A stretch of 30,373 nucleotides of DNA, taken from positions 1-30,373 of the IMG/VR virus record IMGVR_UViG_3300007072_000002; one strand, 5' to 3'. A program made the translations under genes and the position numbers. The notes below the pieces were generated by a model, which saw only the letters and a list, made by a program, of their open reading frames with translations, did no database searches and was not told the DNA's origin. The stretch is from a virus. Positions 447-30,373 of the stretch are shown here, piece by piece; position 1 is the first letter of the stretch; each line of letters begins with the position of its first letter.

Positions 447-737
447 TCACGGAAACACCACCTGCGCCTGTCCTACAATCAACGCCCAAATCAACGCAAT
501 CACCGAAACCCCCAACAAACTTGCCACTGCCATCATCGCTTTAATGAAGGGCGCAAAAGTCTCAAGTGTTCTCAGGCGGTCTTCATGATCTTTGGCAACC
601 CGCTCAAGCTCAGTAAGCTGTTTGGCTGATAGAGGCACGTTTATTAATACAACCTCAACCTTGCTTCTGAGCTCTTTTAGGTCAGTTTTGATCTCTGCGA
701 TATCCCCCCGCAGCTCAGTGTAATCGTCGTGAGGCAT
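447..737 (-). CDS. XhlA-like membrane-anchored lysis protein
   Basis: A 96-residue protein with a long charged coiled-coil segment (about residues 5-60, rich in E, K and L heptads) followed by one hydrophobic helix near the C-terminus (about 70-92, with VASLLGVSVIALIWALIVG). This layout matches the haemolysin XhlA family found in phage lysis cassettes, which works with a holin at the cytoplasmic membrane. The start at MPHDDYTEL is chosen because it follows the holin stop by seven bases; a longer frame upstream only overlaps the holin gene. The ribosome-binding site is weak, so translational coupling is likely. The family assignment rests on architecture and position, not on a signature motif. 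Confidence 0.7.
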   Translation of the reverse strand: MPHDDYTELRGDIAEIKTDLKELRSKVEVVLINVPLSAKQLTELERVAKDHEDRLRTLETFAPFIKAMMAVASLLGVSVIALIWALIVGQAQVVFP

Positions 738-744
738 GGTAAAG

Positions 745-1026
745 TCAGCCACTAGCCGGCGCACGCTTGCTGATAAACTTGTAATACCCGCTGGCTGCCA
801 GACCAAACGCCGCCGAGGTGAACAGGATCTCCACCGCCTGCCCATAGGGTTGTGGCACAATGCCGATGAGTTGGTATGCGGTCAGAATAACCGCTCCCAA
901 CACCGCCGCCAGCATAGTCACCCGCTTCCCTGACCAGCCCAGCAGCCCCTTCAAAAACTCCACCAGCCCAAACACCAGGGCAATCAACTGTACCCCGCCA
1001 ACCACATATGCTTCTGGATCGAACAT
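745..1026 (-). CDS. Putative holin
   Basis: A 93-residue, very hydrophobic protein with three predicted membrane segments (about residues 9-30, 36-57 and 66-84) and a short basic tail (KFISKRAPASG). Small size, three helices, and position directly before an XhlA-like protein and a GH25 endolysin support a holin, which permeabilises the inner membrane at a set time. A strong AAGGAG site lies about five bases before the ATG. It is the first gene after the stem-loop at 1050-1071 and the promoter near 1131-1158, so it probably opens the late transcript. The exact holin family is not recognised. Confidence 0.75.
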   Translation of the reverse strand: MFDPEAYVVGGVQLIALVFGLVEFLKGLLGWSGKRVTMLAAVLGAVILTAYQLIGIVPQPYGQAVEILFTSAAFGLAASGYYKFISKRAPASG

Positions 1027-1041
1027 AACTTCTCCTTAAAC

Positions 1042-2197: not shown

Positions 2198-3079
2198 TCA
2201 ACATTTTATTTGCTCTCGTAAGATCGCAATTGCATCATCGTTAGACATACTGTGCAATCTGGCAAATAAATTGATCACATCCAGCGGCTTGGGCGTGCAG
2301 CCGGCAAAACAACCGCAAATCTGGCGCTGAGTGTCGATCCAAAAACTGGGATGCCTGTCATCATGCAACGGACACGTTGTCAATAGCCAGTGGTCACCAG
2401 TGGCAATCGTATTGCCAAAAAAGCTCTCGATTGATAAACTTGCCCGGATCTTGTCGATAACACCAGTACCGGGCGGAGCGCTGCGCGGCAACATAGCCAG
2501 GAGCCACGGGTCATCAACAGACCGGGCAACAACCGGGTTAACAACTCCCGCCGGCAAATCCTGATCTGCCAGCACAGCCGCCGGCAACACATCGGAAAGA
2601 TTAGCGACCAAAGGGAAGTTAAAATGCTCAGTAAGGGGGGTATAGACAGCCCCGCTCGGGTGGATCGACCCTGCGCCGATCACATAACCCCCGCGGCACT
2701 TGATATCAATCTTACCGACGCGCCGGGTACGCTCGGGCTTGGGAAGACGAATATAAACATGTACACCCCGGGAAGTTACCACTTTATAAGCCATCCAGCT
2801 GACCCACTCCGGCGGTCCGGGTTGGCTTCTTGCCCACAACAACCATTTAGAGTAATCACTCATATCGTCAAAATCTAAGACGGTTAATCCTTGCCAACCG
2901 GTTATAATCCCTATATTGCGTGGCTTCGCGAACCACCACCGCAATTCTTGCTCAGTAGGGAGTTGGGATTGATATTGCTGCCATCGCAAGAGCGGTCGCT
3001 TGTCACGGTATTTCACCGGGATTACTGCGATCCCCCGGTGAAGAAAGCTTAGTGCAAGGTTTATTGCGGAATTGGTCAT
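2198..3079 (-). CDS. Bifunctional primase-polymerase (AEP/prim-pol) with C-terminal CHC2-like zinc finger
   Basis: Makes primers and probably short DNA strands at the phage origin. The archaeo-eukaryotic primase domain spans about residues 5-170: GIAVIPVKYRDKRPLLRW at 16-33, the metal-binding pair in VLDFDD (Asp69, Asp71), SRGVHVY (103-109), and GGYVIGAGSIHPSG (130-143). A second module at 225-285 has TTCPLHDDRHPSF (Cys236, His239) and CGCFAGC (Cys255, Cys257, Cys261), matching the DnaG/CHC2-type zinc finger. At 293 residues it is compact. It lies just beyond the palindrome-rich region 3098-3190, opposite the VirE-type ATPase, so the two probably form the replisome core. Its ribosome-binding site is weak (AGAG). 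Confidence 0.9.
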   Translation of the reverse strand: MTNSAINLALSFLHRGIAVIPVKYRDKRPLLRWQQYQSQLPTEQELRWWFAKPRNIGIITGWQGLTVLDFDDMSDYSKWLLWARSQPGPPEWVSWMAYKVVTSRGVHVYIRLPKPERTRRVGKIDIKCRGGYVIGAGSIHPSGAVYTPLTEHFNFPLVANLSDVLPAAVLADQDLPAGVVNPVVARSVDDPWLLAMLPRSAPPGTGVIDKIRASLSIESFFGNTIATGDHWLLTTCPLHDDRHPSFWIDTQRQICGCFAGCTPKPLDVINLFARLHSMSNDDAIAILREQIKC

Positions 3080-3192: not shown

Positions 3193-4650
3193 TCATGGCC
3201 CTTTCAATCGTATTCCTGCATAGCCGCGCAGCAAATTCCTTCCGGTTCTAGCAACAAACGGCTTCCCCAGTCCCAACTTAGTCAGCGCTGCTGCCAATTT
3301 GCGCGTATCCAGGTCGAATCCGGTTAGCCCAGCGTTTTTCAGCTCCGCCAAAATATCGAGCGTCGCCATCCACCACTGGTTATTGCCGGGGTCGATCTCA
3401 AATAAACGCTTGATAGTTTCCTCCACCACGTCTACAATCTGATATTGTTGGTTGATTTCCTCCGCCTGGTCCCACTCGTGGGGTGTCAGCTCCCAGGGCT
3501 CGCCGCTTAAATACAGATCGAACGCTTGCGCCCAAACTTGGTCAACATCTATCCGAGTGTAAGACCAGTCGATATTCTCCAGGTGCACCACCATGAAACG
3601 CCGGTTGCCAGTTGGATCGGATAGTAAACCCCCCTCGTTGTTCGCCGTGCCGATGAAGCTAGTGATCACCTGCCCGATCAGATCAAATTTCGCGTACGGC
3701 TTTCGGTCTCTCACGGTCTGTGTGGTCAAAAACGCTTTCAGCGCTTCCCGGTCTGCCCGCCGGGTTGTAGAGCCAAACTCGTTCACTTCCCAGATCCACG
3801 TCCATAGGCGTCTTAATCTACAATCCTTGTCATCTGGCGTGATTGCTCCCTCATGGTAGTACTCCGGCATCGGGCTCGCCAGCCACTTCACAAAATGGCT
3901 CTTGCCGATGCGCTGCCTGCCATCCAGAACTAATACTCTATTTTGTTCACCCGCCATCACCCGCGCTACCGCCCCCACCAGCCAGCGCCGCATCCAGGTT
4001 GCAAAGACGTTGTGCTCATCCCAAAAACAAGCGCATAAATTCCCGATTGGGTCGCCACCGTTAAATTTCAAGCCTGTCAAATAGTCCCGAATCGGATGAT
4101 AACGGTGCAACCAAGCGGCGCCGGTGTAGGCGTCCTCCGCCACACCTACTTCCCACACCCCCACGTCGCGCAATTTGCCTCGGATGATCTTTGCCAGACC
4201 ATCACTCACCGGCACGCCGTTTGCCTCGATCTCGTGGGTGCATAAGTTGTATTTGAATTCATATCCTAATGACTTCAGCACCTGCATATACTGAGCAGTC
4301 TTGCGTTTCTTTCCCGGGCTGGCGGTTTGCAGCCATTGCCGCAATTCAGCTGCCCGGGTGGTAATTGCCCCCAGCACAGCTGCCTGCGCCGCCGGCGGCA
4401 GGTTCTCGATGCTGAGAGCGATAGCATCTTGCACGTTGCCGCCAATTTGGATAATCTGCTCGTGCATGCTCCGCCATGGTTCTGCCCTCGGCGGCAACAA
4501 ATTTGGCGGCTCGCCGCTCGCCAGGCAACGTGCAATTTGCTCCAGCCCATCGATAAATTCCTGCTCTGGCTCATTGGCGTAATATTGTTCCAGGATCTGG
4601 GCGTCGCCCGTATTAATCCCGGCATTGAGCAGGGTGCGTAAGTTCGCCAT
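3193..4650 (-). CDS. VirE-family (SF3-like) P-loop ATPase, putative replicative helicase
   Basis: A 485-residue protein of the virulence-associated E (VirE) family, SF3-like helicases common beside prim-pols in phages and integrative elements. The C-terminal half carries the ATPase: Walker A GRQRIGKS (244-251) after VLVLD, an acidic Walker B-like WIWEVNEF (Glu288, Glu291), and downstream GTANN and TGNRRF (near residue 350). The N-terminal 200 residues are helical and unassigned. It probably loads on the adjacent region 3098-3190 and unwinds DNA for the prim-pol. The start is seven bases after the VWA stop; no clear ribosome-binding site is seen, so coupling is likely. Confidence 0.85.
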   Translation of the reverse strand: MANLRTLLNAGINTGDAQILEQYYANEPEQEFIDGLEQIARCLASGEPPNLLPPRAEPWRSMHEQIIQIGGNVQDAIALSIENLPPAAQAAVLGAITTRAAELRQWLQTASPGKKRKTAQYMQVLKSLGYEFKYNLCTHEIEANGVPVSDGLAKIIRGKLRDVGVWEVGVAEDAYTGAAWLHRYHPIRDYLTGLKFNGGDPIGNLCACFWDEHNVFATWMRRWLVGAVARVMAGEQNRVLVLDGRQRIGKSHFVKWLASPMPEYYHEGAITPDDKDCRLRRLWTWIWEVNEFGSTTRRADREALKAFLTTQTVRDRKPYAKFDLIGQVITSFIGTANNEGGLLSDPTGNRRFMVVHLENIDWSYTRIDVDQVWAQAFDLYLSGEPWELTPHEWDQAEEINQQYQIVDVVEETIKRLFEIDPGNNQWWMATLDILAELKNAGLTGFDLDTRKLAAALTKLGLGKPFVARTGRNLLRGYAGIRLKGP

Positions 4651-6251: not shown

Positions 6252-7008
6252 ACTTACCTCTACACTGCCCCCAAAAATCACAATAAGCTGGGCTGCACTT
6301 CCAGGTTGTGGGATTCTCAGGATAGACATTTCTGGATATCGCTTCCCACACATGCCGGATCATCCCGAACAGCCACATCACCTGTCCTGGTGTATGCTTA
6401 TGCTCGAATATGTCTATCTTGGGCTGTTTTGTCTTCACAATCACATAATGCCTGAAAGTCCATTCGTGATTATGCTCACCTAACTGGTTTAGCGCGGCTA
6501 AGTAAAATAGCGGCTGCGTTTCGCCGGTCGCTCGGTCAGCAGACCACGACTTGGCGGATGTTTTGAAGTCCCCCGGCACACCCGCTAGGTCAATCATGTC
6601 AATATACCCAATCACCGGCACAGGCACCCCCGGCACGCGCAGCTCTACTTTGCGCTCGATCTCAGTTGCTTGTAATTCACTTAGGGCATCGCAGATCGCC
6701 CTGTCGCTCAGTATGCGAACGCCCTCGTTGAAATGTTGTTCCGGGGTGTCTGTGCCCCACACTATCTGCTCGCCCTCTAGAGCCTGGTTCCAGGCTCTTC
6801 CCCAAATACTGAGCAAATCCTCCTGAGTCATAATATTCTCTTCGATGGTCTGGTGCATTGCCTTGCCGAAAATCAGGTCGGGCGTTGAATAGGTCGGGAT
6901 TTTTTCCACATACTTAAAGCGCCAGCTCGCTGGGCATGTCAGATAAGTTGTTATGCTCGAGTAAGACAAATGCTCGATCAGTGATATGTTTGATTGAGTG
7001 GCGCTCAT
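6244..7008 (-). CDS. RecB/Cas4-like PD-(D/E)XK exonuclease with probable Fe-S cluster
   Basis: A 254-residue nuclease of the PD-(D/E)XK superfamily. The order of motifs is SYSSITTYLTCP (Cys25), GKAMHQ (His52), GYIDMID (Asp137), GDFKTS (Asp147, Lys149), a Q-motif ETQPLFYL (Gln165) and a cysteine trio CSPAYCDFWGQC (238, 243, 249). One N-terminal and three C-terminal cysteines match the four that hold an iron-sulfur cluster in AddB and Cas4. In phages such enzymes resect ends for strand annealing. It follows the Sak4-like ATPase gene directly (stop TGA one base before the ATG) and overlaps the next gene by 8 bases. Confidence 0.85.
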   Translation of the reverse strand: MSATQSNISLIEHLSYSSITTYLTCPASWRFKYVEKIPTYSTPDLIFGKAMHQTIEENIMTQEDLLSIWGRAWNQALEGEQIVWGTDTPEQHFNEGVRILSDRAICDALSELQATEIERKVELRVPGVPVPVIGYIDMIDLAGVPGDFKTSAKSWSADRATGETQPLFYLAALNQLGEHNHEWTFRHYVIVKTKQPKIDIFEHKHTPGQVMWLFGMIRHVWEAISRNVYPENPTTWKCSPAYCDFWGQCRGKYD

Positions 7009-7009: not shown

Positions 7010-7879
7010 TCATATTCTTCTACTTTCTAACACGCTCAAGATCTGCAGTACTTCTTCGTCCGTCGCTGGGATCTTTCCCCCGTTTGCGTTCATGATCACC
7101 TCGGCGTCGTAGGACTCCAGCAGTATTGCCAGTAGGTCATGGTTAGTTTGTGTTTCTGGCTTTTGTACTGGAATTTCTGGTATGGACTCTGTTCCCGAAG
7201 TCAGCCATTCAATCACCGGCAGCATGAATTCCGGACCAGGCTTTTCGATCTTGAGATCGGCTACTGCTGGACAGCGGCTTTTAGAGACTGTCATAATGTG
7301 CGACCAGTCGATGTCACATACCAGGTCGAATTCGTACTCTACGCCGGGCCTCTGCACTGGCGCCATGCCCACCCGCCGTACCACGGTTTTGCCTTGCTCG
7401 TTGATTTCTTGAACATACTCCATCCGGCTGCGCATGGTAGTGATGACGTGGCATGGCGATTGCAGGATACTGTCCACCATACGGTTATGGATTGGAGTCA
7501 CCGTTCTCCATGCAGTGTAATTGTTGCCTGGCGCCCGGTCTTTGATCTCCAACGCCCCTCCAACGCCTTCCCATGCGTGCGAGAGCGAATCGATCACCAA
7601 TACCGCGTAACCCATACGTCCCGCCGCCAGCACTGCCTCGGTGTATCGCTCTGGTGAAAATGTGGTGAGCTCAAGTACATCAAATTCCCAGGGGATTCCA
7701 TCGACAATTTCCCCTGCATATTTAGATGCACTGCCTCTTTCTGTGTCGATCACGGCGATCCTGCCGCCGTTTACCAGCGCGTGGGCGAAGCGCAGCGCCG
7801 TATAGGTCTTTCCCGATCCCGCCGGTCCATCAATTGTCATTCGCAGCCGGCTCTGTCGTCGTGTAGCTTTTCTAAACAT
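7010..7879 (-). CDS. Sak4-like RecA-fold ATPase (AAA_24 type)
   Basis: A 289-residue ATPase with Walker A GPAGSGKT (18-25) and Walker B VLVID (93-97) in a RecA-type core up to about residue 220, followed by a variable tail. This matches the AAA_24/Sak4 group of single-strand annealing proteins used in phage recombination. It sits between an ERCC4 nuclease and a RecB-like exonuclease, which fits. The start at 7879 is preferred because AAGGAG lies at the right distance (six bases after GGAG), whereas ATG 7885 touches it. It overlaps the ERCC4 stop by 8 bases. Confidence 0.85.
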   Translation of the reverse strand: MFRKATRRQSRLRMTIDGPAGSGKTYTALRFAHALVNGGRIAVIDTERGSASKYAGEIVDGIPWEFDVLELTTFSPERYTEAVLAAGRMGYAVLVIDSLSHAWEGVGGALEIKDRAPGNNYTAWRTVTPIHNRMVDSILQSPCHVITTMRSRMEYVQEINEQGKTVVRRVGMAPVQRPGVEYEFDLVCDIDWSHIMTVSKSRCPAVADLKIEKPGPEFMLPVIEWLTSGTESIPEIPVQKPETQTNHDLLAILLESYDAEVIMNANGGKIPATDEEVLQILSVLESRRI

Positions 7880-8630
7880 TCTCATCTCCTTGTATGGCTA
7901 AAAACAATTCTCCGTTATCCTTGGCAAAGAGCTCCAGGCTCTCGCCGTCTTTCAAACCCAGTGCAGCTCGCACTTTGCGCCGGGTGGCGTTGCCCAACGG
8001 ACAACCGATATCCAGGTCGGTTATTCCAGATATAGCCACTCCCGCCCTTCCTCCCGCCCAAGCCAGTATCTCCATCGCTCGTTCCACGCCGATCCCGGGC
8101 AGCGCCGCCAGGATTGCCGCGCTCGGTCCCAAAACCGACGGTATCCGTGGTGGCAATAGCTTCATCTCGATCTCTCGCTTGCGGTATGCCAGGCGGATAA
8201 TGCAGGCTTCAAAGTCCTGGTCTCCCCCGCAAAATACTACGAATACCCCCATTTCTTGAATGCTCAGTAATGCTCCTTGCACTGCGTCCCAGTTCCAGCC
8301 AGTTTGCCGCTCGGTTATTGCCTTGCCGCCTGGTCCGCGGGAAATCTCTCCAGTGATGACCAAATATGGCCATGTAGTCAGCTTGCCGTTAACCTGCTCG
8401 TCTATCCTGGCGTGGCTGATAGCTGCCATCTGCAGAAATAGCCGTTCTTCTCGAAGCGAATTCAGCAGATCATCTGGCGTCTTGCGCTCGATCACCAGCA
8501 AGCAGCCGTCATCTGTCAGCGCATGCACGTCGCCGTAATCCAGCAATGTGATTGTTGTAGGTGCACCGCCGAACATTAACCTTTGCACCCAGTCTGGCTC
8601 GCGACTGTCAATCATCACTGCCTGGATCAT
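7872..8630 (-). CDS. ERCC4 (XPF/MUS81-type) structure-specific nuclease with HhH motif
   Basis: A 252-residue endonuclease. The ERCC4 catalytic signature is complete: DSREP (8-12), YGDV (Asp34), and VIERKTPDD (Glu48-Arg49-Lys50, then Asp53). A helix-hairpin-helix DNA-binding region follows near 168-190 (LAALPGIGVERAMEIL). XPF and MUS81 relatives cut branched DNA, so this enzyme could resolve flaps or recombination forks, or replace a RuvC-type resolvase, since no other resolvase is seen. GGAGG sits six bases before the ATG. It overlaps the small membrane-protein gene upstream by 23 bases. Confidence 0.9.
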   Translation of the reverse strand: MIQAVMIDSREPDWVQRLMFGGAPTTITLLDYGDVHALTDDGCLLVIERKTPDDLLNSLREERLFLQMAAISHARIDEQVNGKLTTWPYLVITGEISRGPGGKAITERQTGWNWDAVQGALLSIQEMGVFVVFCGGDQDFEACIIRLAYRKREIEMKLLPPRIPSVLGPSAAILAALPGIGVERAMEILAWAGGRAGVAISGITDLDIGCPLGNATRRKVRAALGLKDGESLELFAKDNGELFLAIQGDENV

Positions 8631-8727
8631 ACGGCGCCTCCCGAAGCCATTTGATAAGGATTGGTAAGAAAATCAGGACGAATAACAGGTAACTTCCACA
8701 TAATACTGAGCATATTTTGACAATCAT
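8608..8727 (-). CDS. Small single-pass membrane protein, 39 residues
   Basis: A short frame with a clear AAAGGAGC site before its ATG. The product has one hydrophobic helix (about residues 5-26, including VLCGSYLLFVLIFLPILI) and a short acidic tail. It overlaps the start of the ERCC4 gene by 23 bases. Its early codons contain one copy of the GCTCAGTA word (minus strand, 8711-8704). Small membrane peptides in early operons can block superinfection or alter host membranes; nothing here is specific. Confidence 0.5.
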   Translation of the reverse strand: MIVKICSVLCGSYLLFVLIFLPILIKWLREAPYDPGSDD

Positions 8728-8803: not shown

Positions 8804-8855
8804 CCGCGCCGTTCGGGGGAAATCCCTGTAAGAGAGAGCGGCTAGAACGGCGCGG
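8804..8855. other. Long G/C-rich hairpin over the stop codon of the ssDNA-binding candidate
   Basis: CCGCGCCGTTC (8804-8814) and GAACGGCGCGG (8845-8855) form a perfect 11-bp stem; the distal arm includes the last codons of the upstream gene, whose stop is at 8842. The loop is 30 bases. With the hairpin at 8741-8774 it makes a pair of structures separating the highly translated upstream gene from the nuclease genes. Likely roles are 3'-end protection or partial attenuation. Confidence 0.6.
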
Positions 8856-9540
8856 TCATCTCGGTGATAAGCGCTACGGTTTCAGGCGAGTCAATCGTGA
8901 AATACTTCGCCAGTAGCTTCTGCTCGGCGATCATCGGTGCCAGCTTGGCGCGGATCTTCTCTAAATCTGTCTCGCCTCGGGCTGCGTTCTGAACATAAAA
9001 TCTCAAGAATTTGAACGCTGTCTCTTTCTCTTTGCCGTTATCACTGGATGGCGCAGATGACGTCGCCGGTGCATTGCCATTAAATGCCGCCAGACATTCT
9101 TCGCGCGTGTCGTAAATCGCCAAAAAACGCAGTGTAGTGGCGTTCTTGACTTCTCCGTTTTGATTGGTGTATGTCCTGCCGGTGGGCACAGTTTCCACCT
9201 TGGCGAACTTGCCGTTGATTTCTTGCAGCGTCATTACACCCAGATCGCGCAGGCTGGGTAGCACAATATCTTTCCACTCGCCGAACTCGGCGAGCATGCG
9301 GCGCTCAATCGGCTGTTCGATCTTGCTCTCTTCCAGCGGTGTAAGCAAGAGGTCGATTGCTGTGTAACGCCGCAGAGCGTTGCCTTTTTCATCCGTTTGG
9401 TTTGGGTCATATGGAACTTTGCCAAAACCCTTAACCAACGAACAAGCCCAGGCGTTCACGGAAATTTCTCCGTAATACTCAAAGGCTTGCTCCGGTGGGT
9501 TCATGGCAGCTTCAAATGGATCGTAAGGTTTGGTAGCCAT
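8842..9540 (-). CDS. Putative ssDNA-binding or recombination accessory protein
   Basis: A 232-residue protein, not recognised by motif. The N-terminal 150 residues look beta-rich and the segment 150-165 (APATSSAPSSDNGKEKE) is a flexible linker before a helical C-terminus (about 170-225) ending DSPETVALITEMTAPF. Position directly upstream of ERCC4, Sak4-like and RecB-like genes suggests a ssDNA-binding role; this is inference. It has a strong ribosome-binding site (GGAG nine bases before ATG), in a 28-base leader identical to that of the putative capsid decoration gene, which suggests abundant expression. Confidence 0.5.
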   Translation of the reverse strand: MATKPYDPFEAAMNPPEQAFEYYGEISVNAWACSLVKGFGKVPYDPNQTDEKGNALRRYTAIDLLLTPLEESKIEQPIERRMLAEFGEWKDIVLPSLRDLGVMTLQEINGKFAKVETVPTGRTYTNQNGEVKNATTLRFLAIYDTREECLAAFNGNAPATSSAPSSDNGKEKETAFKFLRFYVQNAARGETDLEKIRAKLAPMIAEQKLLAKYFTIDSPETVALITEMTAPF

Positions 9541-10461: not shown

Positions 10462-10537
10462 TTCGCCCCCAGTCCAGTGCCAGCATCAACAGGCTCAGCG
10501 CCAGGATGAATACGCCAGATGCGATCCACTCAACCAT
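10454..10537 (-). CDS. Small membrane peptide, 27 residues
   Basis: The frame MVEWIASGVFILALSLLMLA plus seven residues is one hydrophobic helix with a short charged tail. The start overlaps the stop of the ribbon-helix-helix gene and its stop overlaps the next start, in line with translational coupling. The ribosome-binding site (GAGCAGG) is mediocre. Small size limits certainty. Confidence 0.4.
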   Translation of the reverse strand: MVEWIASGVFILALSLLMLALDWGRND

Positions 10538-10715
10538 TTTTCGCCTGCTCTTTCTTTTCTTGTTCTTCCCAAAACAGGTCAATTGCCCGCCTCACGCACT
10601 CGCCTTGGGAAATCCCAAGCCGTTTCGCTAAATCGGAAATCCTGGCGATGTGCAGCATACTCAGGGAATAGGTCTTTGTCACCGCATATTGCATTTTTGG
10701 GTCTTCGTTCTTCAT
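10530..10715 (-). CDS. Ribbon-helix-helix (CopG/Arc-type) regulator
   Basis: A 61-residue protein, first gene of the leftward early operon. The pattern MQYAVTKTYSLSMLHIARIS (beta strand then helix) followed by DLAKRLGISQGECVRRAIDLF is the ribbon-helix-helix DNA-binding fold. It probably dimerises and controls the early promoter, perhaps in a Cro-like role opposite the HTH repressor. GAGG lies about five bases before ATG 10715; the frame to 10745 would start inside the operator and upstream of the likely ribosome-binding site, so it is rejected. Confidence 0.8.
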   Translation of the reverse strand: MKNEDPKMQYAVTKTYSLSMLHIARISDLAKRLGISQGECVRRAIDLFWEEQEKKEQAKNG

Positions 10716-10729
10716 AGTTACCTCGGGTT

Positions 10730-10746
10730 GGTGACTATATGTCACC
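10730..10746. promoter_or_regulatory. 17-bp palindromic operator at the early transcription start
   Basis: GGTGACTATATGTCACC is a perfect inverted repeat with 6-bp arms and a 5-base centre. It spans the expected start site of the leftward promoter, where a bound dimer would block early transcription. A half-site (TGTCACC, 10801-10807) lies on the other side of the -35. Candidate binders are the HTH repressor at 10855 or the ribbon-helix-helix protein at 10530. Confidence 0.75.
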
Positions 10747-10756
10747 AGATGGTTAC

Positions 10757-10785: not shown

Positions 10786-10800
10786 TGGCTGGCAACAAAA

Positions 10801-10833: not shown

Positions 10834-10854
10834 TATCGCCAGGAGAAAAACGGC

Positions 10855-11253
10855 ATGTTCTCAGAATGGCTTCAAAGGGAGATCAATCAACGTGGGTGGT
10901 CCCAATCAGATTTAGCGCGAAAAGCAGGGATAAAACGTCAAGTAGTTAATCGATACATTAATCAAGAACGATTAACCCCAGATAAAGAAATTCTCATAGC
11001 CATTGCCCGCGCCCTCGACTATCCCCCCGAGGTCGTCCTGCGCGCCGCCGGTATCCTCCCCACTCTCCCCGATTGGCGCTCCGCCGCCGAAGAAATCCTA
11101 GGCTACAAGCTTACTGAGCTCAGTAACTCGCAGATCGAAGAGCTGCTCCAGTATGTCGAGTTTATCCAAAATCGCGACGAGCGTAATCTCGACCGCCGCA
11201 CCAGCTACAAAAAACGGGAGGGGGAAACCCCTCCCGAAACGGTTAAGAAATAG
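10855..11253 (+). CDS. HTH (Cro/CI-type) lysogeny repressor
   Basis: A 132-residue DNA-binding protein. The helix-turn-helix occupies about residues 5-60: WLQREINQRGWSQSDLARKAGI then VVNRYINQERLTP and an IAIARAL helix. The C-terminal half (RSAAEEILGYKLTELS, IEELLQYVEFI) is helical and lacks a LexA/S24 protease domain, so induction would not use RecA-assisted self-cleavage. It is transcribed away from the early operon across the operator region, as expected for a CI-like repressor. ATG 10855 is chosen for the AGGAG ten bases upstream; the frame from 10771 would run over the promoter. A perfect 16-bp palindrome of the GCTCAGTA word lies inside it (11111-11126). Confidence 0.88.
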   Translation: MFSEWLQREINQRGWSQSDLARKAGIKRQVVNRYINQERLTPDKEILIAIARALDYPPEVVLRAAGILPTLPDWRSAAEEILGYKLTELSNSQIEELLQYVEFIQNRDERNLDRRTSYKKREGETPPETVKK

Positions 11254-11276
11254 AACAATTATTCTAAGACGATAAA

Positions 11277-20269: not shown

Positions 20270-20502
20270 TCTTCACCTCGCTTGTTTTCTTGTTCCGGCA
20301 GTCGCGCCTTGTTGGTGCTTCCCCCGGCGTTTGCTTTAATCTCAATATACAACCCGGAGCGCAGCAGGAATGACCTCAACGTATCACCCTTATGAATTAT
20401 CAAGCCAAAAGCCTCACTCTTTTCAAGCTCAGTAAGGTCGAAGTCGCTCAAATCCCGCGCCGGTATCCCTGAATAAAAACCTGGTCCAACATATTTCAGC
20501 AT
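20266..20502 (-). CDS. Hypothetical head-tail region protein, 78 residues
   Basis: Begins MLKYVGPGFYSGIPARDLSD and ends with a charged tail (ARLPEQENKRGEE). The early YVGPGFYSGIPARDLS pattern looks like small proteins often found between connectors and tail tube in siphoviruses, of unknown structure. A perfect AGGAGG lies before the ATG, so it is surely translated. It overlaps the tail tube start by four bases (ATGA). Confidence 0.7.
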   Translation of the reverse strand: MLKYVGPGFYSGIPARDLSDFDLTELEKSEAFGLIIHKGDTLRSFLLRSGLYIEIKANAGGSTNKARLPEQENKRGEE

Positions 20503-20510: not shown

Positions 20511-20912
20511 CTATACTAATGGCACTTTCACGTCCACTTCAAATCGGTAGCCGATTGTCTCAGCCCCGTTCCATTCCAGCCTGCCAAATGTGCGTCGCAC
20601 TTCAATCACACAACTTACTGAGCCTCCCAGAGTCGGATCGGCGATAAGTTGTTTCAAAAATGCGTCACGCATGCTCATCGCTTGTTCGATGGCTCTTGGC
20701 AATAGCTGCCTGCTCACGTGCAGCTCAGTATAGATGGTGGCCAAATCATCCCCAAAACTTGCCGAGCGGACTACCAATCTGCCCGACCGTTCGTAGCTGA
20801 CTGCAAATGGGAACACGTTGGCGCTTTCAGTTGGAGCGTTTGGTGCCGCCCGCATCCCGCTCAGGCTCATGGCTTTGGCCTGTAAATTTCCGATGGCATC
20901 ATTCAGGCTCAT
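20511..20912 (-). CDS. Putative tail terminator / head-tail joining protein
   Basis: A 133-residue protein with an alpha-beta mixture (FAVSYERSGRLVV, DDLATIYTELHVSR, AIEQAMSMRDAFLKQL, ETIGYRFEVDVKVPLV). Size, place between the connector gene and the tail tube, and the ATGA overlap with the connector gene suggest the tail terminator or a joining protein. The family could not be fixed by motif. Confidence 0.6.
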   Translation of the reverse strand: MSLNDAIGNLQAKAMSLSGMRAAPNAPTESANVFPFAVSYERSGRLVVRSASFGDDLATIYTELHVSRQLLPRAIEQAMSMRDAFLKQLIADPTLGGSVSCVIEVRRTFGRLEWNGAETIGYRFEVDVKVPLV

Positions 20913-21526
20913 AGCGTCACTCGCTGGTATTTCGGTATCTCAAGCAAGCTAGCAATATCCGGATCTAACTTGGTGTAGCGGATTTGCCCCAGTTCCACGT
21001 TTGCCAGTGTGTCTTGATACGCGCCCTGACCGCGCTTGAACCAACGCACGGTTTGAATGATTGTCACCTGTTTAATTTCATCCGGCGCAGAGACCGAAAA
21101 GCCAAACGTACCAATGATCTTCACTGCCCGACGATATGGTGGCCATATTGATTTTGATCCACGTGGATTAATGTCAATCCGCACATATGGTATCCCATCC
21201 AACAGCGCATTATCCGGCCATAGAAAATAGTCGCTAGCTGAGTAAAGGGTATAGCTTGACAAATCCCCGCTCTCTGCCACGCTTACCGAGGTAGGTGCTG
21301 CCGCTAGCTCGTCAATCCATAGTTCATCTGTGCCTGACCCCGTGTAATAACGCGTCTCATCGGTACTCACCGCAAACGCCCCCGGCTTGCGCTTGAGATG
21401 AGCGTCAATTGCCCGGCTAGCAGCAGTGATCAGCCGGTTGACAATCGCATCATACTCAGTATTCCAGAGACCGGTTTGCCCGTCGGTCAGTTGCTCTATG
21501 ATCTCAGCCAGTGTGCAATAAGTCAT
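20909..21526 (-). CDS. Head-tail connector (gp6-like) protein
   Basis: A 205-residue protein. Its helical start (MTYCTLAEIIEQLTD, then IVNRLITAASRAIDAHLKRK) is the gp6-like head-tail connector pattern, which forms a ring below the portal. The middle has TRYYTGSGTDELWIDELA and SVSVAES strands, common in this family. GAGGTGAATC precedes the ATG. It follows the intergenic gap that carries the 27-bp palindrome. Confidence 0.8.
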   Translation of the reverse strand: MTYCTLAEIIEQLTDGQTGLWNTEYDAIVNRLITAASRAIDAHLKRKPGAFAVSTDETRYYTGSGTDELWIDELAAAPTSVSVAESGDLSSYTLYSASDYFLWPDNALLDGIPYVRIDINPRGSKSIWPPYRRAVKIIGTFGFSVSAPDEIKQVTIIQTVRWFKRGQGAYQDTLANVELGQIRYTKLDPDIASLLEIPKYQRVTL

Positions 21527-21705
21527 GATTCACCTCTTCATGGGAACGGTTTTACGATCACCCGGCAAAACATGCCGCGTCTCCGTCCGCCGATGGTAGC
21601 GATGCAGGTCAAGTAATACTCAGTATTAATTGACAGTTTAGAACAATCCAAAGGCGGAGAGGGGGAACGCTCAGTAACGAGAACCCCCCCCCGCCCGCAA
21701 ATCTA
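21527..21705 (-). other. Non-coding gap between decoration and connector genes
   Basis: This 179-base gap interrupts an otherwise gapless late operon. It holds the 27-bp palindrome (21608-21634), a GCTCAGTA copy (21669-21676) and a run of nine C (21684-21692 on the plus strand). A minus-strand frame to a TGA at 21537-21539 encodes a stretch with INTEYYLTCIATIGGRRRGM but has no ATG except very late, only TTG codons without a ribosome-binding site. I regard it as a possible small or broken gene, not called. Confidence 0.5.
21608..21634. promoter_or_regulatory. 27-bp near-perfect palindrome centred on ACTCAGT (putative operator)
   Basis: The two 13-base arms around the central C at 21621 are complementary except at one position pair (GTCAAGTAATACT and AGTATTAATTGAC). 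The core AATACTCAGTATT is fully symmetric. This is the most symmetric relative of the GCTCAGTA word found across the genome and lies in the only sizeable gap of the head-tail gene series, so a dimeric DNA-binding protein is a natural reader. Confidence 0.6.
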
Positions 21706-22165: not shown

Positions 22166-23530
22166 TTACGATGTGCCTGCCTTCAGCACTTTCATCCGGT
22201 ACGGTTCAGCGCAGTATCCGCCGACGCGCTTGCGTCCCAAAAGCAGGGTCAGATTGGTTTCGGCGTAGATCTCGCTCAGTCGCTGCAGAGAGAACCCCAC
22301 CCGGTCGAGCACGATATACCCCGACAGGTCGCCAAACAGGATCGGGTAGGTGTTTGTCCCAATGTCCGGCATGAACTCATCCACCCTAACTGGCTTGCCC
22401 TTCACGCGCTCCGGCTCATCGCTTGCCAATCCTGCGTTCAGCAGGGTCTGCACGATGGGACGCTTCTGGGCATCCACCAGGTTCTCGACCTCTTTCAGAG
22501 TGCTTGAGTTCATCACCCAGGCCGCGTTTCTCCGATACTGAGCTGGCACCGCATAGTACAGGTTTAACAAGCGCTGGCCAGAATGACCATCGCCCGAGGT
22601 GGTGATCGCGGCGCTGGTGCCGGAGATCACGTACGCTGGTCCATTGGTATTCACTTCTGCCAGGATGCCCATGGGCTTGTTCACACCATTGCCGTTGAGG
22701 AAAACATCGTCCTCGCCCAGAGCGAATGCCTCTGCCATCAAATCTGAGGAGACGCCCAATACATCGAATGCCGCGTCCTCGATCAGATCGTTGGTGATCG
22801 GCATGCTCGCCATCGCCGTGTGCACCGGGATGGTGATCAACCCAAATACCGGGTCGGTCACACGATGTTCACTCGATGACGCCGGCTGCTCGCCGGTCCA
22901 CGTCAGACGCACACCAGAGGTGTACTTGTCATCCGTGGTGTAGTTCACCCGTGGCCATTTTGCCATATCCCGGCTGGTGGTTACCACTCGCGCCAAGCTG
23001 CGGATTGCCGCCAGGGTTGCTACTTTTTTGATCAGCTCTGCATGATAGTCCTCTGGCACCAAAAAGCCGCCGGCGCTGTCAACGCCTGCGGACAACGTCT
23101 TGCGGTCTGACGGACCCAGTTCACCAAATCCCTTACGCAGGTATCCCTCGAATGCCGGGGAGTACTCCTTTGCCTGCACCACAATTGGCACGTGATAACG
23201 CAGGGTTTTCACGCCCACGGGTGTGGCAATCTCCATCTGCCGCCATGCCTTCACATCCACTGCCGGCGCGCCTTCATCAGGACCGGCAGGACGCCAGCCC
23301 AGATGAGCTGCCTGTGGATCACCAGGCCCATTCAAAAACTGGTCACTATCAGCCAGGCGCTCCGCCAGGTTGATCTTGGCTTTGATCTCATCCGCCTGCC
23401 CAAGAATAGTATCGATCTGCCTCGCTGCCTCTTGGGTCATCTGCTCTTCTTTGCCCTTCCATTGCGCAGCCAGCGCCTGGGCTTCAGCGATCTTGGCTGC
23501 GTACGCTTTGCGTAACTGTTCTAGGTTCAT
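22166..23530 (-). CDS. Major capsid protein, HK97 fold
   Basis: A 454-residue capsid precursor. Residues 1-60 form a charged coiled coil (the delta, scaffold-like domain removed by the protease). The HK97 fold follows, with GVDSAGGFLVPEDYHAELIK near 150-170, SRDMAKWPRV, the central ITNDLIEDAAFDVLG stretch, GEDDVFLNGNG and a C-terminal part ending PYRMKVLKAGTS. GAGGTGAAAC lies before the ATG, and the gene is five bases after the protease stop. Confidence 0.93.
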   Translation of the reverse strand: MNLEQLRKAYAAKIAEAQALAAQWKGKEEQMTQEAARQIDTILGQADEIKAKINLAERLADSDQFLNGPGDPQAAHLGWRPAGPDEGAPAVDVKAWRQMEIATPVGVKTLRYHVPIVVQAKEYSPAFEGYLRKGFGELGPSDRKTLSAGVDSAGGFLVPEDYHAELIKKVATLAAIRSLARVVTTSRDMAKWPRVNYTTDDKYTSGVRLTWTGEQPASSSEHRVTDPVFGLITIPVHTAMASMPITNDLIEDAAFDVLGVSSDLMAEAFALGEDDVFLNGNGVNKPMGILAEVNTNGPAYVISGTSAAITTSGDGHSGQRLLNLYYAVPAQYRRNAAWVMNSSTLKEVENLVDAQKRPIVQTLLNAGLASDEPERVKGKPVRVDEFMPDIGTNTYPILFGDLSGYIVLDRVGFSLQRLSEIYAETNLTLLLGRKRVGGYCAEPYRMKVLKAGTS

Positions 23531-23534: not shown

Positions 23535-24635
23535 TCACCTCATGGTCAAAAATATAGGGTCTCTGGTTGCAATTGCCAGCCTTCGCAGTACCTGCCCAGT
23601 GAGTGCCCGACTTTTTTCATCGTCAGGCGGCTCGGCTGCTAACAGGATCTCCTCCAGCACTTCCAGTGCGTTCTTCAAGCGCTCCAGGTTGCGGGCGCTC
23701 AGCACTCGGCCTTCTTTCAATTCTGGCAGCATCAGCCGCGATAAATACGACCAGCGCACCAGTTTCATTTCCGGGGGGACTTTATCGAATTGCTCATAAT
23801 GCCGCGCGAGGTGCTTGTAAACCGCCTCTACATCACCCTCGGGGATATCTACCCCGCCTCGTGCTCCCATCAATGCCCCCATGGCTGCCGCACAGCCCCG
23901 CCATACTACCTTGCCTACCCCGGTTTTCTCCGCTTTGTGATGTGGCAACTTGCAGTCAGTAAACTTTTCAGGCGGCATAGAGACCACCCACGCATAATGC
24001 GCCGCGATGCGCCGCCTTTCGGATTCTGATAGGTCATCCCAGGATTGCTCAGTAAAATCGGTTAGGCGCGGCGCTGACCATTCTTCACCCTCGTCGGCAA
24101 TGCCCGTGTCCTTATAAGGCACTGCCGCCTTGCTCGCGATAGTGGCATTGTTCGCTCCCCAGTTCACGTCCGATGTGTCCCAGATACGCACCTCGCGCAG
24201 ATTGCGCACCATGAGTTTACGGTCATCATACTCAATTTCCGCGAAGTCATACTTCACCGGGTCATAGCCAATGCTCATCTCTGAAATTGCGCCCGTCCGG
24301 ATCCCCTCCAGGATTTCATCGCCGCGCGGCGTGCGTAGGTATTCGCGCACTACTATCAGCCCGCCAGTAGCATCCGGGTATTCTTTTTTGACCTCATCCG
24401 GCAGCTCCGCCGTGTCAACCTCTCTCAGCTCTCGCACCGCTGCCACCGGCGGTTGCATCATATCGTGCTGCCATAAGTGGCGTACCCTGCCGGCGTTCTC
24501 TTTTATGGTCTTCTTGAAAGCGCCTCTGTGGATGATATCCCAATAAGTATCCACGTTCTCGGTGATCGCTGCCAGCCCGGTCACGGTGCGATCCTGGATG
24601 TCGTTTACCTGTGTCTGAATAGATTTGTATTCCAT
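23535..24635 (-). CDS. HK97-type prohead protease
   Basis: A 366-residue serine protease that matures the capsid. The U9/S78-type catalytic features are seen: His57 in LWQHDMMQPP and Ser121 in EMSIGY, within an N-terminal domain of about 190 residues. The C-terminal 170 residues (with CKLPHHKAEKTG and VWRGCAAAMGALMGARGG near 240-270) are an extension found in some phage proteases, of unknown purpose. GAGGCGACA precedes the ATG. Confidence 0.9.
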   Translation of the reverse strand: MEYKSIQTQVNDIQDRTVTGLAAITENVDTYWDIIHRGAFKKTIKENAGRVRHLWQHDMMQPPVAAVRELREVDTAELPDEVKKEYPDATGGLIVVREYLRTPRGDEILEGIRTGAISEMSIGYDPVKYDFAEIEYDDRKLMVRNLREVRIWDTSDVNWGANNATIASKAAVPYKDTGIADEGEEWSAPRLTDFTEQSWDDLSESERRRIAAHYAWVVSMPPEKFTDCKLPHHKAEKTGVGKVVWRGCAAAMGALMGARGGVDIPEGDVEAVYKHLARHYEQFDKVPPEMKLVRWSYLSRLMLPELKEGRVLSARNLERLKNALEVLEEILLAAEPPDDEKSRALTGQVLRRLAIATRDPIFLTMR

Positions 24636-24642
24636 TGTCGCC

Positions 24643-27573: not shown

Positions 27574-29068
27574 GGATACCCCCCATCGCTGACCCATTCC
27601 GCAGATCGTTCCAGCTCCAAAATGCTGCATCAACCAGGTCAAATGGTTTAGTCAACGGGAACCGCCTGAGCGCACGCTCTAAAATCAGATGTGTTCCATT
27701 TACATGCACAATTTTGCCCCGCTCATAGTCTGCCAGCATTTGCAGATTGCGCTCCACCTTGGGGCCATAGCCAGCCCCTGCTTTGTCCCATACCATTAGC
27801 GGCAACCAGGTCAGCTCGGGACGATCCTGCCGGATCTGCTCACACACCCGGTAATATACACTCTGCCAGGTATCCCCGCCCTGGTCAGTCTCAATCCCCA
27901 CGTGATCGAACTGCAACTCGACTGCCTTGAGAATTGCCCTCTTTAGCGCGTCCTCCGGGCTGGTCACCTGCTCCCACGAGAACAAACGATAGATGATCCC
28001 ATCTTCGCCCAATCCATCCGCCTGAATCCCTTGGCTGTCGCTCTGGTCAGTGCTGGTTACTGCCGGATCAACCCACACACAACCCCGTATGAGCACAGGC
28101 AGATCACTCCACTCACAATGCTGAAACTCAATATGATCCCAGATCCCACCTGGCGGTACATCTACCTCGTGCTGCGCCTCTTGCAGAAACGATGTCAATC
28201 CCCAGGTTGTCATCTGTCCCTGGCATATTTCGAGATTCTGCCCTTCCCAAGTCGCCTTGCCAGCCGTAATCACAAACTGCCCACCTCGCTGCTCATACTC
28301 TAATCCTTCCACCGCCGGATACGGTCCGCTGACAATCCGATCAGCGAGCATCTCTGCCCGCCCGTCAACCAGCTGCGCCGCGATGCTGTTGGGGTGTATG
28401 AGGTTTTGAATAAACAGCACTGCACAATCCACACTGCCGGCAGGCAGAAGCGAGGTTGATATTGTTTCGACTTTCTTGCGAGTCGTTGCCAGGCTATCAA
28501 AACGCTCGTCCACGTCATCGAAAATGATCAGGTCTGGGCGCTGGTGCTCCACCTTTGCGCCACGGCTGCCCACATCCAAGCCCAGAGCATCTATCGTCAA
28601 TCCGCTGGCGGTCCGCAGTCGCTCCCGCCGCCAGCCTTTCGACGCCCCATACTTGCCAATCTTGCGTGATGCCAGGAGCGGGTGATAACGTTCCAATTGC
28701 TTGCTTTCCAACATTGCCCCAATAGTCTCTACGTGCTTGTCGGCCTTCTCCTGAGTGGCAGAGACATACCAGATGTATTTGCGGCTTCCTTTAGCTCCCA
28801 CTCGCACACAAGCCAGCTCAGCACTGGATGATTTTGCTCCACCTCTCGGCCAGATTGCCACCAGTGGGCACGGACGCACACCACGCTGTATTCCCTCTAC
28901 CCACTCCCAAAACAACACGTGTCTATCGGCAAATGGCGCGCTGATATACGCCGGGTAGATAGCTTTCAGCCAACCCTGCCAGCTCTCTGGCGCCAACAGG
29001 GTCTTAGTCCCCAGGCGTTTCCTGCGCTCCAGCTCCGCCAACGCTCTGACCTGCACTTGCGAGTACAT
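27566..29068 (-). CDS. terL: Terminase large subunit
   Basis: A 500-residue packaging motor. The ATPase has a Walker A-like IWPRGGAKSSS (about 72-82; the usual G-K-S replaced by G-A-K-S-S) and Walker B LIIFDDVDE (180-188). The nuclease part has VWVDPAVTS (Asp334), IETDQGGDTW (391-401) and a late FDLVDAAFW. The start at MYSQVQVRAL (29068) is chosen for GGAGG nine bases upstream; the longer frame (29113) overlaps the small subunit gene needlessly. Which class (headful or site-specific) is not evident. Confidence 0.93.
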   Translation of the reverse strand: MYSQVQVRALAELERRKRLGTKTLLAPESWQGWLKAIYPAYISAPFADRHVLFWEWVEGIQRGVRPCPLVAIWPRGGAKSSSAELACVRVGAKGSRKYIWYVSATQEKADKHVETIGAMLESKQLERYHPLLASRKIGKYGASKGWRRERLRTASGLTIDALGLDVGSRGAKVEHQRPDLIIFDDVDERFDSLATTRKKVETISTSLLPAGSVDCAVLFIQNLIHPNSIAAQLVDGRAEMLADRIVSGPYPAVEGLEYEQRGGQFVITAGKATWEGQNLEICQGQMTTWGLTSFLQEAQHEVDVPPGGIWDHIEFQHCEWSDLPVLIRGCVWVDPAVTSTDQSDSQGIQADGLGEDGIIYRLFSWEQVTSPEDALKRAILKAVELQFDHVGIETDQGGDTWQSVYYRVCEQIRQDRPELTWLPLMVWDKAGAGYGPKVERNLQMLADYERGKIVHVNGTHLILERALRRFPLTKPFDLVDAAFWSWNDLRNGSAMGGIHV

Positions 29069-29642
29069 GCAGTGGGTCCTCCCCATTTGCGATTCGCGCC
29101 AACTGTTCATCACTCAGTAATGAGAGATCAATGTTCAGTGTAGTCAACCTACCTCCAGTCTCTATCCCGGCTGCCAGTCTTCGCAGCTTCGAAGCCAGCT
29201 CCATCGCGTCAACCAGGAATTTCCCGTTTAGCGCAACTGTCATAATCTCTTTCCCACTTCGATCAACCCGAGTGCTGGTCTTGATAAACCTCGGCCCTTC
29301 TGCCAGGATCGCCTTAGACAATTCCAGCAACTCGCTGCCCACCTGCCATTCGTCCTCTCGCAACTGCGCATGGCGCTGAGCCCACTTGTCATGATCCTCA
29401 ATCGCCCGCAGCTGCTCCCAGGCTGCAACCCGCGCCTGCCACGCGTAGTGTCCTGACCATTTGTCAAGCGTCGGCTTGCGCCTGGTCGGCGGATCAGTCT
29501 GCTGTCGGTATAGCATATGCAACTTTGCCAGACTACGCTTGAACCCCATCATGGCGTAGTCATACAAAGCACGGTTCGCTTTTGCCGATTCGCCATCACA
29601 GCGCGCCAGTGGGTCATCAGGATTAAAAACAAACTCGGTCAT
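29004..29642 (-). CDS. terS: Terminase small subunit
   Basis: A 212-residue protein with ESAKANRALYDYAMMG and LDKWSGHYAWQARVAAWEQL in the first 80 residues, a helix-turn-helix type region known from phage terminase small subunits, then a long helical body and a disordered end. It probably binds the packaging start site on concatemeric DNA. It overlaps the upstream gene by 20 bases and the large subunit start by 65. Confidence 0.8.
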   Translation of the reverse strand: MTEFVFNPDDPLARCDGESAKANRALYDYAMMGFKRSLAKLHMLYRQQTDPPTRRKPTLDKWSGHYAWQARVAAWEQLRAIEDHDKWAQRHAQLREDEWQVGSELLELSKAILAEGPRFIKTSTRVDRSGKEIMTVALNGKFLVDAMELASKLRRLAAGIETGGRLTTLNIDLSLLSDEQLARIANGEDPLHVLASAGQSVGGAGAQETPGD

Positions 29643-29796
29643 CGAAATCGTCGCACTCGTACAACATCAAGCGATACTCTAACCCACGGATGTAATGTCG
29701 TAGCAGGTTGGCGGTTTCTGTATCTGTCTCCTCAATCTTCGCCAGCGCCAACTCGATATCTTCCTTGGTCACCAATTTGGGCTGAGTTTCACTCAT
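29623..29796 (-). CDS. Hypothetical protein between endolysin and terminase, 57 residues
   Basis: A short helical protein (MSETQPKLVTKEDIELALAK and a LLRHYIRGLEY segment). GGAG lies six bases before ATG 29796, which overlaps the endolysin stop (ATGA); a frame to 29841 is rejected. Not recognised; it might regulate lysis or packaging. Confidence 0.65.
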   Translation of the reverse strand: MSETQPKLVTKEDIELALAKIEETDTETANLLRHYIRGLEYRLMLYECDDFDDRVCF

Positions 29797-30373
29797 ACTG
29801 GCTCCGCATAGTATTGACCGTTTAGAACCAGGCACACCCACTTGCCATCATACTGCCCACCCTTGATTTGCAACCATGTTGAGCACACTGGCGCGCCGGC
29901 TTTAATGTCCAGCACCTCAAACTCAGTATGAGAGGGCAAGTTACCTACGTCTGGAAAGTTGGTGCCTGGACCAGACCTTACATTCAAATACGGGGATGCA
30001 GTCACTCGATATTTCAATTTATCACCTCCTGGCGGTTCAGGCATGCTTATTCCAAATTCCGCCCTGAATTGCTCAAGCGTTCCAGGATATTCATCCAGAT
30101 CAACAGTTGGGTCAACTATCCCAGGTATCGTTTCGCTCCATGACCGCTGCCAGATAACGTAATCCTTCCACAGCTTCGGCATAGTCGGCTTGGGGGCTGT
30201 GTTGTATAACCCGCCACTGCCCGGGCTCGCTACCCACAGCCTGGTGCCCAGCGTCGACTTGAGATACTGGTTGGCGTATGCCTGGTTGGTATAGGTCAGC
30301 GGCATTTGCCCGTTGACGCGGGGCAGGTTGTACACATGGTAGTCAAACGTCCGCATCGCCCTCCCTGGGACAC
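29793..30373 (-). CDS. Endolysin, GH25 muramidase: C-terminal part with SH3b domain (start at 433 across the join)
   Basis: The C-terminal two thirds of the endolysin. The 123-base repeat region encodes the same residues as at the left end. After the GH25 domain comes an SH3b cell-wall-binding domain near residues 225-290 (YRVTASPYLNVRSGPGTNFP, VGNLPSHTEFEVLD, WLQIKGGQYDGKWV). The frame is open to the window end and continues to 433 across the join, giving 296 residues. SH3b domains attach such enzymes to peptidoglycan. Confidence 0.93.
   Translation of the reverse strand, partial: VPGRAMRTFDYHVYNLPRVNGQMPLTYTNQAYANQYLKSTLGTRLWVASPGSGGLYNTAPKPTMPKLWKDYVIWQRSWSETIPGIVDPTVDLDEYPGTLEQFRAEFGISMPEPPGGDKLKYRVTASPYLNVRSGPGTNFPDVGNLPSHTEFEVLDIKAGAPVCSTWLQIKGGQYDGKWVCLVLNGQYYAEPV
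30251..30373. repeat. Terminal direct repeat, right copy (pairs with 1-123)
   Basis: Exact copy of bases 1-123. It shows where the circular sequence was opened; one copy should be removed to get the true genome of 30,250 bp. Confidence 0.95.

Follow-up and report, generated by a model that had tools for sequence, protein, structure and literature searches.

A position-conserved 8-base word with dialects is scattered through the genomes of a phage family

Short words that recur throughout a genome usually belong to the host, as do Chi, the uptake words and HIP1, and the dispersed words known from phages are mostly repressor sites situated between genes. A Chi site is a mark that tames the DNA-end nuclease of the host. 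The word described here, GCTCAGTA followed by A or T, is found throughout the 30,373-nucleotide stretch of phage DNA that was analysed (positions 1 to 30,373 of IMG/VR virus record IMGVR_UViG_3300007072_000002; hereafter the window, or W) and, in more than one spelling, in related IMG/VR records (G029-G039; L numbers denote fetched loci).

Like Chi (GCTGGTGG in E. coli, other words elsewhere), it is a sharp, scattered 8-base word that is enriched in phages (PMC3784561), but it is much denser and more enriched, it is palindromic in one of its dialects, and it is known from phage sequence alone. The stoperators of cluster A mycobacteriophages such as L5 are described as 20-30 sites distributed over a temperate genome with a drifting spelling (PMC6550527, PMC9283540), and in this respect they are similar. 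They are, however, reported to be 13-mers that fit the repressor of the phage, point in the direction of transcription and are located in promoters and in short spaces between genes, and those of these features that can be tested fail here. SPBRE, which is bound by MrpR in phage SPbeta, is likewise a single element repeated at several positions within a prophage, but it is reported from about ten promoter regions, while the present phages contain dozens of intragenic copies (PMC10516654). HIP1 of cyanobacteria is an iterated 8-base word that is swapped for another in some relatives; it is described as a palindrome of the host chromosome tied to methyltransferases, while here the word is found in phages and is asymmetric in dialect I (PMC4390886). 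Pseudomonas phage tf has 14 nick sites, TACT/RTGMC, with letters similar to TACTGAGC and with a variant in related phages, but these are on a single strand, while both strands carry the word here (PMC3517423). The Nostoc phages A-1 and N-1 are reported to contain 43 and 21 copies of asymmetric motifs with an inconsistent gene orientation and an unsettled function, but these are typically found between genes (PMC4916379).

The window has a 123-bp direct repeat at its ends (1-123 and 30251-30373), from which it appears to be a complete phage genome of about 30,250 bp that was assembled as a circle; the phage is temperate. It contains 19 exact copies of GCTCAGTA, 12 on the plus and seven on the minus strand, all between positions 608 and 29930, which is the number and span reported in an earlier note on this DNA. 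The same note expected about one copy by chance, and an order-2 Markov model gives 0.96. Five additional copies had been said to differ in the first base, and these were also recovered, as CTCAGTA is found 24 times and gives four ACTCAGTA and one TCTCAGTA beyond the exact copies. GCTCAGTA is the commonest 8-mer of W, followed by CTCAGTAA, which overlaps it (13 copies), and then by a count of 11; read backwards as a control, GCTCAGTA occurs twice. When synonymous codons were shuffled within the 39 predicted genes, with the two intergenic copies fixed in place, 1000 runs gave a mean of 3.3 copies and a maximum of 8, as against the 19 observed. The copies are mostly coding and use several frames, as had been claimed: 17 of the 19 are within predicted genes (six sense, 11 antisense) and all three frames are represented, while two are outside such genes, where the non-genic part of W is 2399 of 30373 bases. 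Motif refinement retained the A/T after the word and little else. The final 6.3 kb (24055-30373) contains no exact copy. A text search of the literature with GCTCAGTA gave no phage paper by title among the matches listed.

The frequency seen in W is not shared by phages related to it through structural genes. Fetched stretches of 48 loci, comprising terminase relatives (32 viral contigs), one repressor relative and 15 major-head-protein contigs, had 0-1 copy each, and in the 23 of these loci for which whole records were searched there were 0-2 copies, with five of the 23 having any. Both tests by which the earlier note could have been refuted, the count after codon shuffling and the count in other genomes, left it standing. 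Three named phages with a Sak4-like homologue have 0 or 1 copy in stretches of 22-41 kb. The Sak4-like ATPase of W (7010..7885, minus strand; best match PHROG 1366, annotated as unknown function, and also PHROG 124, Sak4-like) served as marker for word-bearing relatives. A scan with the protein led to G029 (42.2 kb, 47 copies) and G030 (43.0 kb, 44 copies), both with 0 copies of the reversed word, and a scan with a three-member alignment led to nine further records. The set thus consists of 12 IMG/VR records, W included, that share the recombination module of W.

The word family is found in ten of the 12 records, or seven lineages after near relatives are merged. Dialect I is GCTCAGTA, with GCTCGGTA in addition in G034 (pooled as GCTC(A/G)GTA). 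It is the spelling of W, G029, G030, G038 (39 copies of GCTCAGTA) and G034 (31 GCTCGGTA and 17 GCTCAGTA). The prevailing words in G031, G032, G035, G036, and G037 are ACTCAGTA and ACTGAGTA, which make up the palindrome TACT(C/G)AGTA of dialect II; it is present 10, 20, 8, and 19 times in G031, G032, G036, and G037, respectively. The palindromic spelling dominant in these four phages also occurs twice in W, as TACTCAGTA at 21453..21461 and 21617..21625. G031 has mixed spellings, with seven GCTCAGTA where 0.9 are expected. G035 nearly duplicates a part of G036 (100% identity in the four proteins compared) and was excluded from the analyses of location, spacing, conservation, codon columns, dispersed-word strength, neighbour words, flanks and residue splits. 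Two records are word-free: G033, which has an end repeat and looks complete, has no GCTCAGTA, and G039, a 25-kb record, has two. No substitute dispersed word as strong was found in either, the best scores being 10.9 and 9.4 compared to 21.8 for W and 13.3 for G031. In W, G029, G030, and G038 the word is enriched about 20-29 fold, and the dialect I phages have 0.6-1.2 sites per kb, while the family as a whole has roughly one site per 0.8-4 kb. Both strands are used (plus/minus: W 12/7, G029 32/15, G030 16/28, G038 23/16). In G038 (L098, L099) 30 sites are located in the 18 kb with the recombination module and nine in the other 20 kb, which might reflect a recent acquisition of part of the genome.

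That the word is under selection on the DNA level, as had been proposed, is strongly supported by the codon shuffle and by the tests of orientation, conservation, codon columns and synonymous placement. G029 and G030 have 78% base identity in aligned stretches, and 33 of 41 sites are unchanged between them as compared to 22% of 8-mers. The word is also set where codons can spell it without any change of the protein. W fills 16 of 56 such synonymous places, while 1.2 are expected from codon usage, G029 fills 42 of 99, G030 41 of 91, and G038 34 of 73, and in G037, where 0.6 are expected, TACTSAGTA takes up 18 of 32. Of such places, the reversed control word takes up 0-2 in each of the five dialect I phages. 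Furthermore, there are 19 cross-lineage coincidences of sites in the same codon column, at 14 columns in nine orthologous genes. Random placement (2000 rounds) gave a mean of 0.69 and a maximum of 5; in this null test, as in the residue-split test below, G029/G030 and G036/G037 each count as one lineage and the word-free G033 and G039 are excluded. With about 300 permuted words, 484 sites yielded 22 coincidences; GCTCAGTA yielded 8 from 55 sites, and the dialect words 19 from 87. One column encodes Ala-Leu-Leu-Ser-Ile throughout, by way of TACTGAGC in W, of GCTCAGTA in G029 and G030, and of palindromes in G031 and G036; as W and G029 here have the word in opposite directions, its orientation appears to be of no consequence. 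GCTCAGTA(A/T) is, in short, enriched, conserved in position, placed at codons that spell it without protein change, and accompanied by related spellings in relatives.

When the 149 copies of W, G029, G030, and G038 are pooled, only two of the 24 one-mismatch neighbours are clearly raised, ACTCAGTA (23 copies, 4.1 expected) and GCTGAGTA (25 copies, 5.8 expected). GCTCGGTA is weakly raised (13 copies, 5.8 expected), and the other 21 are found between 0 and about twice expectation. All three of the raised neighbours are steps towards other dialects. Like Chi, this is thus a sharp, short word in which few changes are tolerated. Dialect II extends to ATACT(C/G)AGTAT, with flanks that are C-rich on the 5' and G-rich on the 3' side for about 8-10 bases past the palindrome. 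In dialect I (210 GCTC(A/G)GTA sites, five phages) GTA is followed by T at 52% of the sites, with a preference for G at the fifth and sixth positions past the word. The element common to the two dialects is thus AGTA(T) with a G-leaning flank after it.

The sites were located in nine phages, using only the 9-base palindrome for G031, G032, G036, and G037, and 236 of the 254 are wholly within genes. Sites are not concentrated between genes, those that are wholly intergenic being 2 of 19 in W (0.8 expected from intergenic length), 2 of 47 in G029 (1.8), 1 of 44 in G030 (2.0), 2 of 39 in G038 (3.2), and 4 of 48 in G034 (2.8). Relative to the gene, antisense sites outnumber sense sites slightly at most, by 106 to 78 in these five phages (sense/antisense: W 6/11, G029 17/28, G030 18/25, G038 20/16, G034 17/26), and no blocks of a single orientation were found along the genomes. 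A position within genes in either orientation is what would be expected of Chi. Antisense copies in W, G029, G030, and G038 avoid the frame in which the complement reads the stop codon TGA, while those of G034 do not, presumably because GCTCGGTA contains no such stop. The 19 sites of G037 are very evenly spaced: the coefficient of variation is 0.33, a degree of evenness that no random set out of 20000 reached, and the largest gap is 2.2 kb; spacing is not significantly regular in the other eight phages tested (p 0.06-0.79). A site is present in five of the six repressor genes examined (W, G031, G032, G034, G037), and in W, G031, and G037 it is found at about 63-64% of the reading frame. The integrase genes of G029, G030, G032, and G034 also have sites, while that of W has none. 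Repressor and integrase genes are expressed in lysogens.

The first copy in W (608..615, plus) lies within the gene at 447-860 (minus), the second (2626..2633, plus) within the primase-like gene at 2198-3079 (minus), and the third (2950..2957, plus) in a codon column where G031 and G037 have sites and G039 an isolated copy. The fourth (4289..4296, minus) is within a helicase-like gene (3193-4650, minus). Two copies in the gene at 6244-7008, at 6706..6713 (plus) and 6807..6814 (minus), share both the codon column and the word with G029 and G030. The copy at 8262..8269 (plus) in the nuclease-like gene (7872-8630) is in a column common to G029, G030, G031, and G036, and the orientation of the word relative to the gene in G029 and G030 is opposite to that in W. 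The copy at 8704..8711 (minus) is between listed genes, inside a small unlisted reading frame. Within the repressor gene, 11112..11119 (minus) and 11118..11125 (plus) form the left and right halves of a 16-bp palindrome, TTACTGAGCTCAGTAA. The remaining copies are at 16122..16129 (plus), 17960..17967 (plus), 18541..18548 (minus), 20427..20434 (plus), 20616..20623 (minus), 20723..20730 (plus), 21669..21676 (plus, intergenic), 22536..22543 (minus, within the major head protein gene), and 24047..24054 (plus).

Several phage proteins were considered as readers of the word. The helix-turn-helix (HTH) repressor of W, of the Cro/CI type (10855..11253, plus), belongs to a family that is present in W, G030, G031, G032, G033, G034, G037, and G039, and thus also in the word-free G033 and G039. 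Its recognition helix, as judged by eye, differs among W, G030, and G034, which are all dialect I phages, and the repressors closest to that of W are those of G037 and G031, which are dialect II phages. The immunity repressor is therefore, as far as these comparisons indicate, probably not the reader. The small protein encoded at 10530..10745 (minus), a ribbon-helix-helix protein according to the earlier note and by eye, has no relative that could be found in the other 11 records and was rejected as a common reader. ParB was rejected, as a ParB_N match is found in two of the 12 records (G034 and G038), one of them over the cut-off. An N6/N4 methyltransferase was rejected as well: in a search limited to this methyltransferase family, matches were found in two of the 12 records, and these two nearly duplicate each other. 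The start of G029 (L065 1-645) has what by eye is an MT-A70-like adenine methyltransferase gene beside a tRNA-Arg gene and the integrase gene.

Iterated profile searches with 254 seed proteins from seven phages gave four families that are present in all ten word-bearing records. These are the primase-like protein (2198..3079, minus; 12 of 12 records by profile), the Sak4-like ATPase, the nuclease-like protein (7872..8630, minus; ERCC4-type by eye, no PHROG match; 12 of 12 records) and the single-strand-binding (SSB)-like protein (8842..9540, minus; assigned by position and eye, no PHROG match; 12 of 12 records). All four are also found in both word-free records, and their residues do not separate the dialects: among 35 splits, the one by dialect takes rank 22 for the primase-like, 8 for the Sak4-like, 22 for the nuclease-like and 31 for the SSB-like protein in dialect-separating residues, and the four were rejected as readers. 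For the helicase-, VWA-, and DnaJ-like genes the dialect split ranks 4, 5, and 14 of 15. No gene family that follows the presence of the word was found among the 12 records. By elimination, the word is read either by a protein of the host or by one encoded in phage genes that show no recognisable relationship. The earlier note had called for a second DNA-binding protein or a host factor, and of these the host factor fits best, while the ribbon-helix-helix protein lost its case with the lack of relatives.

Our preferred, though tentative, reading is that GCTCAGTA(A/T) is a functional double-strand word that is read by the host and is most likely Chi-like. Because the searches turned up no phage gene that goes with the word, we infer a host protein as its reader, and the identity of that protein is likewise an inference; a host factor is favoured, if unproven, and Chi, uptake and modification words are alike compatible with it. 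The likeliest reader would be the host enzyme that degrades and repairs DNA ends, of the RecBCD/AddAB type. On meeting the word this enzyme may turn from degradation of the phage DNA end to recombination, and the scatter of copies over both strands would keep the loss from any DNA end small. Different hosts could then account for the different spellings and for the two phages without the word. The word is kept regardless of gene, orientation and transcription. Even spacing and copies that are palindromic or on both strands fit such protection of DNA ends. Lambdoid phages are reported to over-represent Chi, with a median observed/expected ratio of 2.3, or 3.1 in phages without recombinase, at 0.2 per kb (Bobay et al., PMC3784561).

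A number of observations weigh against a host-read, Chi-like word. The enrichment (20-29 fold) and density (0.6-1.2 per kb) are far above those described for coliphage Chi, the enrichment roughly tenfold, and all 12 phages have a recombination module of their own, while the strongest Chi enrichment is reported for phages without recombinase (PMC3784561). Protein constraint accounts for part of the codon-column coincidence. To our knowledge no palindromic Chi is known. The mixture in G031 (10 palindromes and seven GCTCAGTA) is not predicted by a single host dialect. The exonuclease-like and integrase genes, which were found in only six of the ten word-bearing records, come second of 10 splits in separating the dialects (six phages each; 15 and 40 columns). 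Tetranucleotide similarity does not group the phages by dialect, the correlation to W being 0.42 for G038, which has the same exact word, and 0.66, 0.58, and 0.60 for G032, G033, and G039, where the word differs; if composition mirrors the host, this pattern speaks against a host reader. Finally, peptide patterns of repressor and terminase, which detect close relatives only, found no relative in 84,980 species genomes. Searches for the host with the terminase, repressor, portal, Sak4-like, and helicase proteins gave no close annotated relative either, the best annotated match being that of the Sak4-like protein, 54%, in an Alicyclobacillus phage.

A phage regulator other than the immunity repressor might use the word as a dispersed operator, acting on transcription or prophage compaction in the manner of stoperators or SPBRE. 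The dialect II palindrome ATACT(C/G)AGTAT with its C-rich 5' and G-rich 3' flanks suits a dimer, the site is found in five of six repressor genes, that of W being a 16-bp palindrome of two overlapping copies, and the drift in spelling resembles that described for cluster A stoperators (PMC6550527). We nevertheless regard this as somewhat unlikely: no gene family found follows the word, the 236 of 254 sites wholly within genes, integrase genes among them, have no clear orientation to transcription, repressor helices differ among phages of one word, and the early control region of W has GTGAC repeats and not the word. Stoperators of the immunity repressor proper, as in L5 and as the earlier note had suggested, are far less probable. 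They resemble the word in number and in spread, cluster A phages having 20-30 sites (PMC6550527), and W is a temperate phage with an HTH repressor, but orientation to transcription, intergenic position and co-variation with the repressor were all tested and all speak against them.

Another kind of host-genome word, highly iterated or for uptake (like HIP1 or an uptake signal sequence, USS), might have been shaped by methylation, repair or transformation and be inherited by the phages. Such a word would have densities near 1 per kb, a mostly coding position, copies on both strands and alternative words in relatives, as is seen here, and alternate HIPs are reported to replace HIP1 in some cyanobacteria, where a matching methyltransferase is generally present (PMC4390886). 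The word of W is, however, not palindromic, and an origin by drift or repair does not predict the even spacing in G037, so we consider this explanation unlikely. A replication or packaging site of a core phage protein, either a priming site of the primase or a nick site like those of tf, appears distinctly improbable. All ten word-bearing records have the primase-, Sak4-, nuclease-, and SSB-like proteins, and the reported tf site TACT/RTGMC resembles the reverse complement TACTGAGC (PMC3517423), but the same four proteins are present in both word-free records without separating the dialects, and tf nicks on one strand only, while both strands carry the word in W, G029, G030, and G038. An artefact of codon usage, protein repeats or chance has next to no probability left. 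Part of the placement does follow amino-acid contexts such as LLS and DTER, but codon shuffles and permuted and reversed words fail to reproduce the enrichment, and these controls refute it.

Some other repeated words and neighbouring genes were recorded. TTACTGAGCTCAGTAA was tried as a probe for other word-bearing phages and rejected; it gave five contigs with 2-4 copies each, two of those in the palindrome itself, and the contigs, two of which are one phage, are unrelated to W except for one short tail-protein match. The frequent words of terminase and head-protein relatives, AACCTTAA (L021), CACGAGCC (L032), and CTCACCGA (L026), proved to be local clusters or one-sided coding words, while GAATGCGC in L018 (9 copies, 1.0 expected) and TCCGGCAA in L044 (11 copies, 1.5 expected) are dispersed on both strands and less enriched. 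The AACCTTAA cluster at L021 2130-2241 is iteron-like and perhaps a replication origin. G039 (L100) has ten copies of CTGCCGTTA within 1.7 kb (10392-12088), on both strands, which is a local repeat; as the dispersed word of G039 it was rejected because it is confined to this cluster. In W, GTGAC/GTCAC repeats at 10720-10850, between the divergent ribbon-helix-helix and HTH repressor genes, may be the true early operator. A complete tRNA-Glu (TTC) gene (11706-11779) directly precedes the tyrosine integrase gene and is probably the attachment site, and in G029 and G030 tRNA-Arg (CCG) genes adjoin the integrase genes. VWA-like (by eye) and DnaJ-domain genes are found at 4658-6353, inside the replication module, and in eight of the 12 related phages. 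A HicA-like toxin match slightly under the Pfam cut-off (10086-10328) and its small neighbour gene (10309-10461) make a possible HicAB pair, which is related to G030 10934-11200.

The original observation is real and larger than first seen, as the word belongs to the whole family, has dialects and is conserved in position. This family of phages keeps an intragenic word that is far denser than coliphage Chi, and the reader of the word must matter to the phage across many parts of its genome. It is possible, if rather doubtful, that this dialect-bearing genome-wide word (GCTCAGTA, GCTCGGTA, TACT(C/G)AGTA), which selection places about once per kilobase and also within the phage's own repressor and integrase genes, is host-read. 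It would then be either a phage "self mark" of a new class or an initial view of the Chi-like word in a bacterial group for which none is known. The reader can now be sought directly, since the word and its dialects are available together with more than 250 sites and relatives that naturally lack it. If the word is indeed Chi-like, the recombination word of a bacterial lineage would have been obtained from phage sequence alone.

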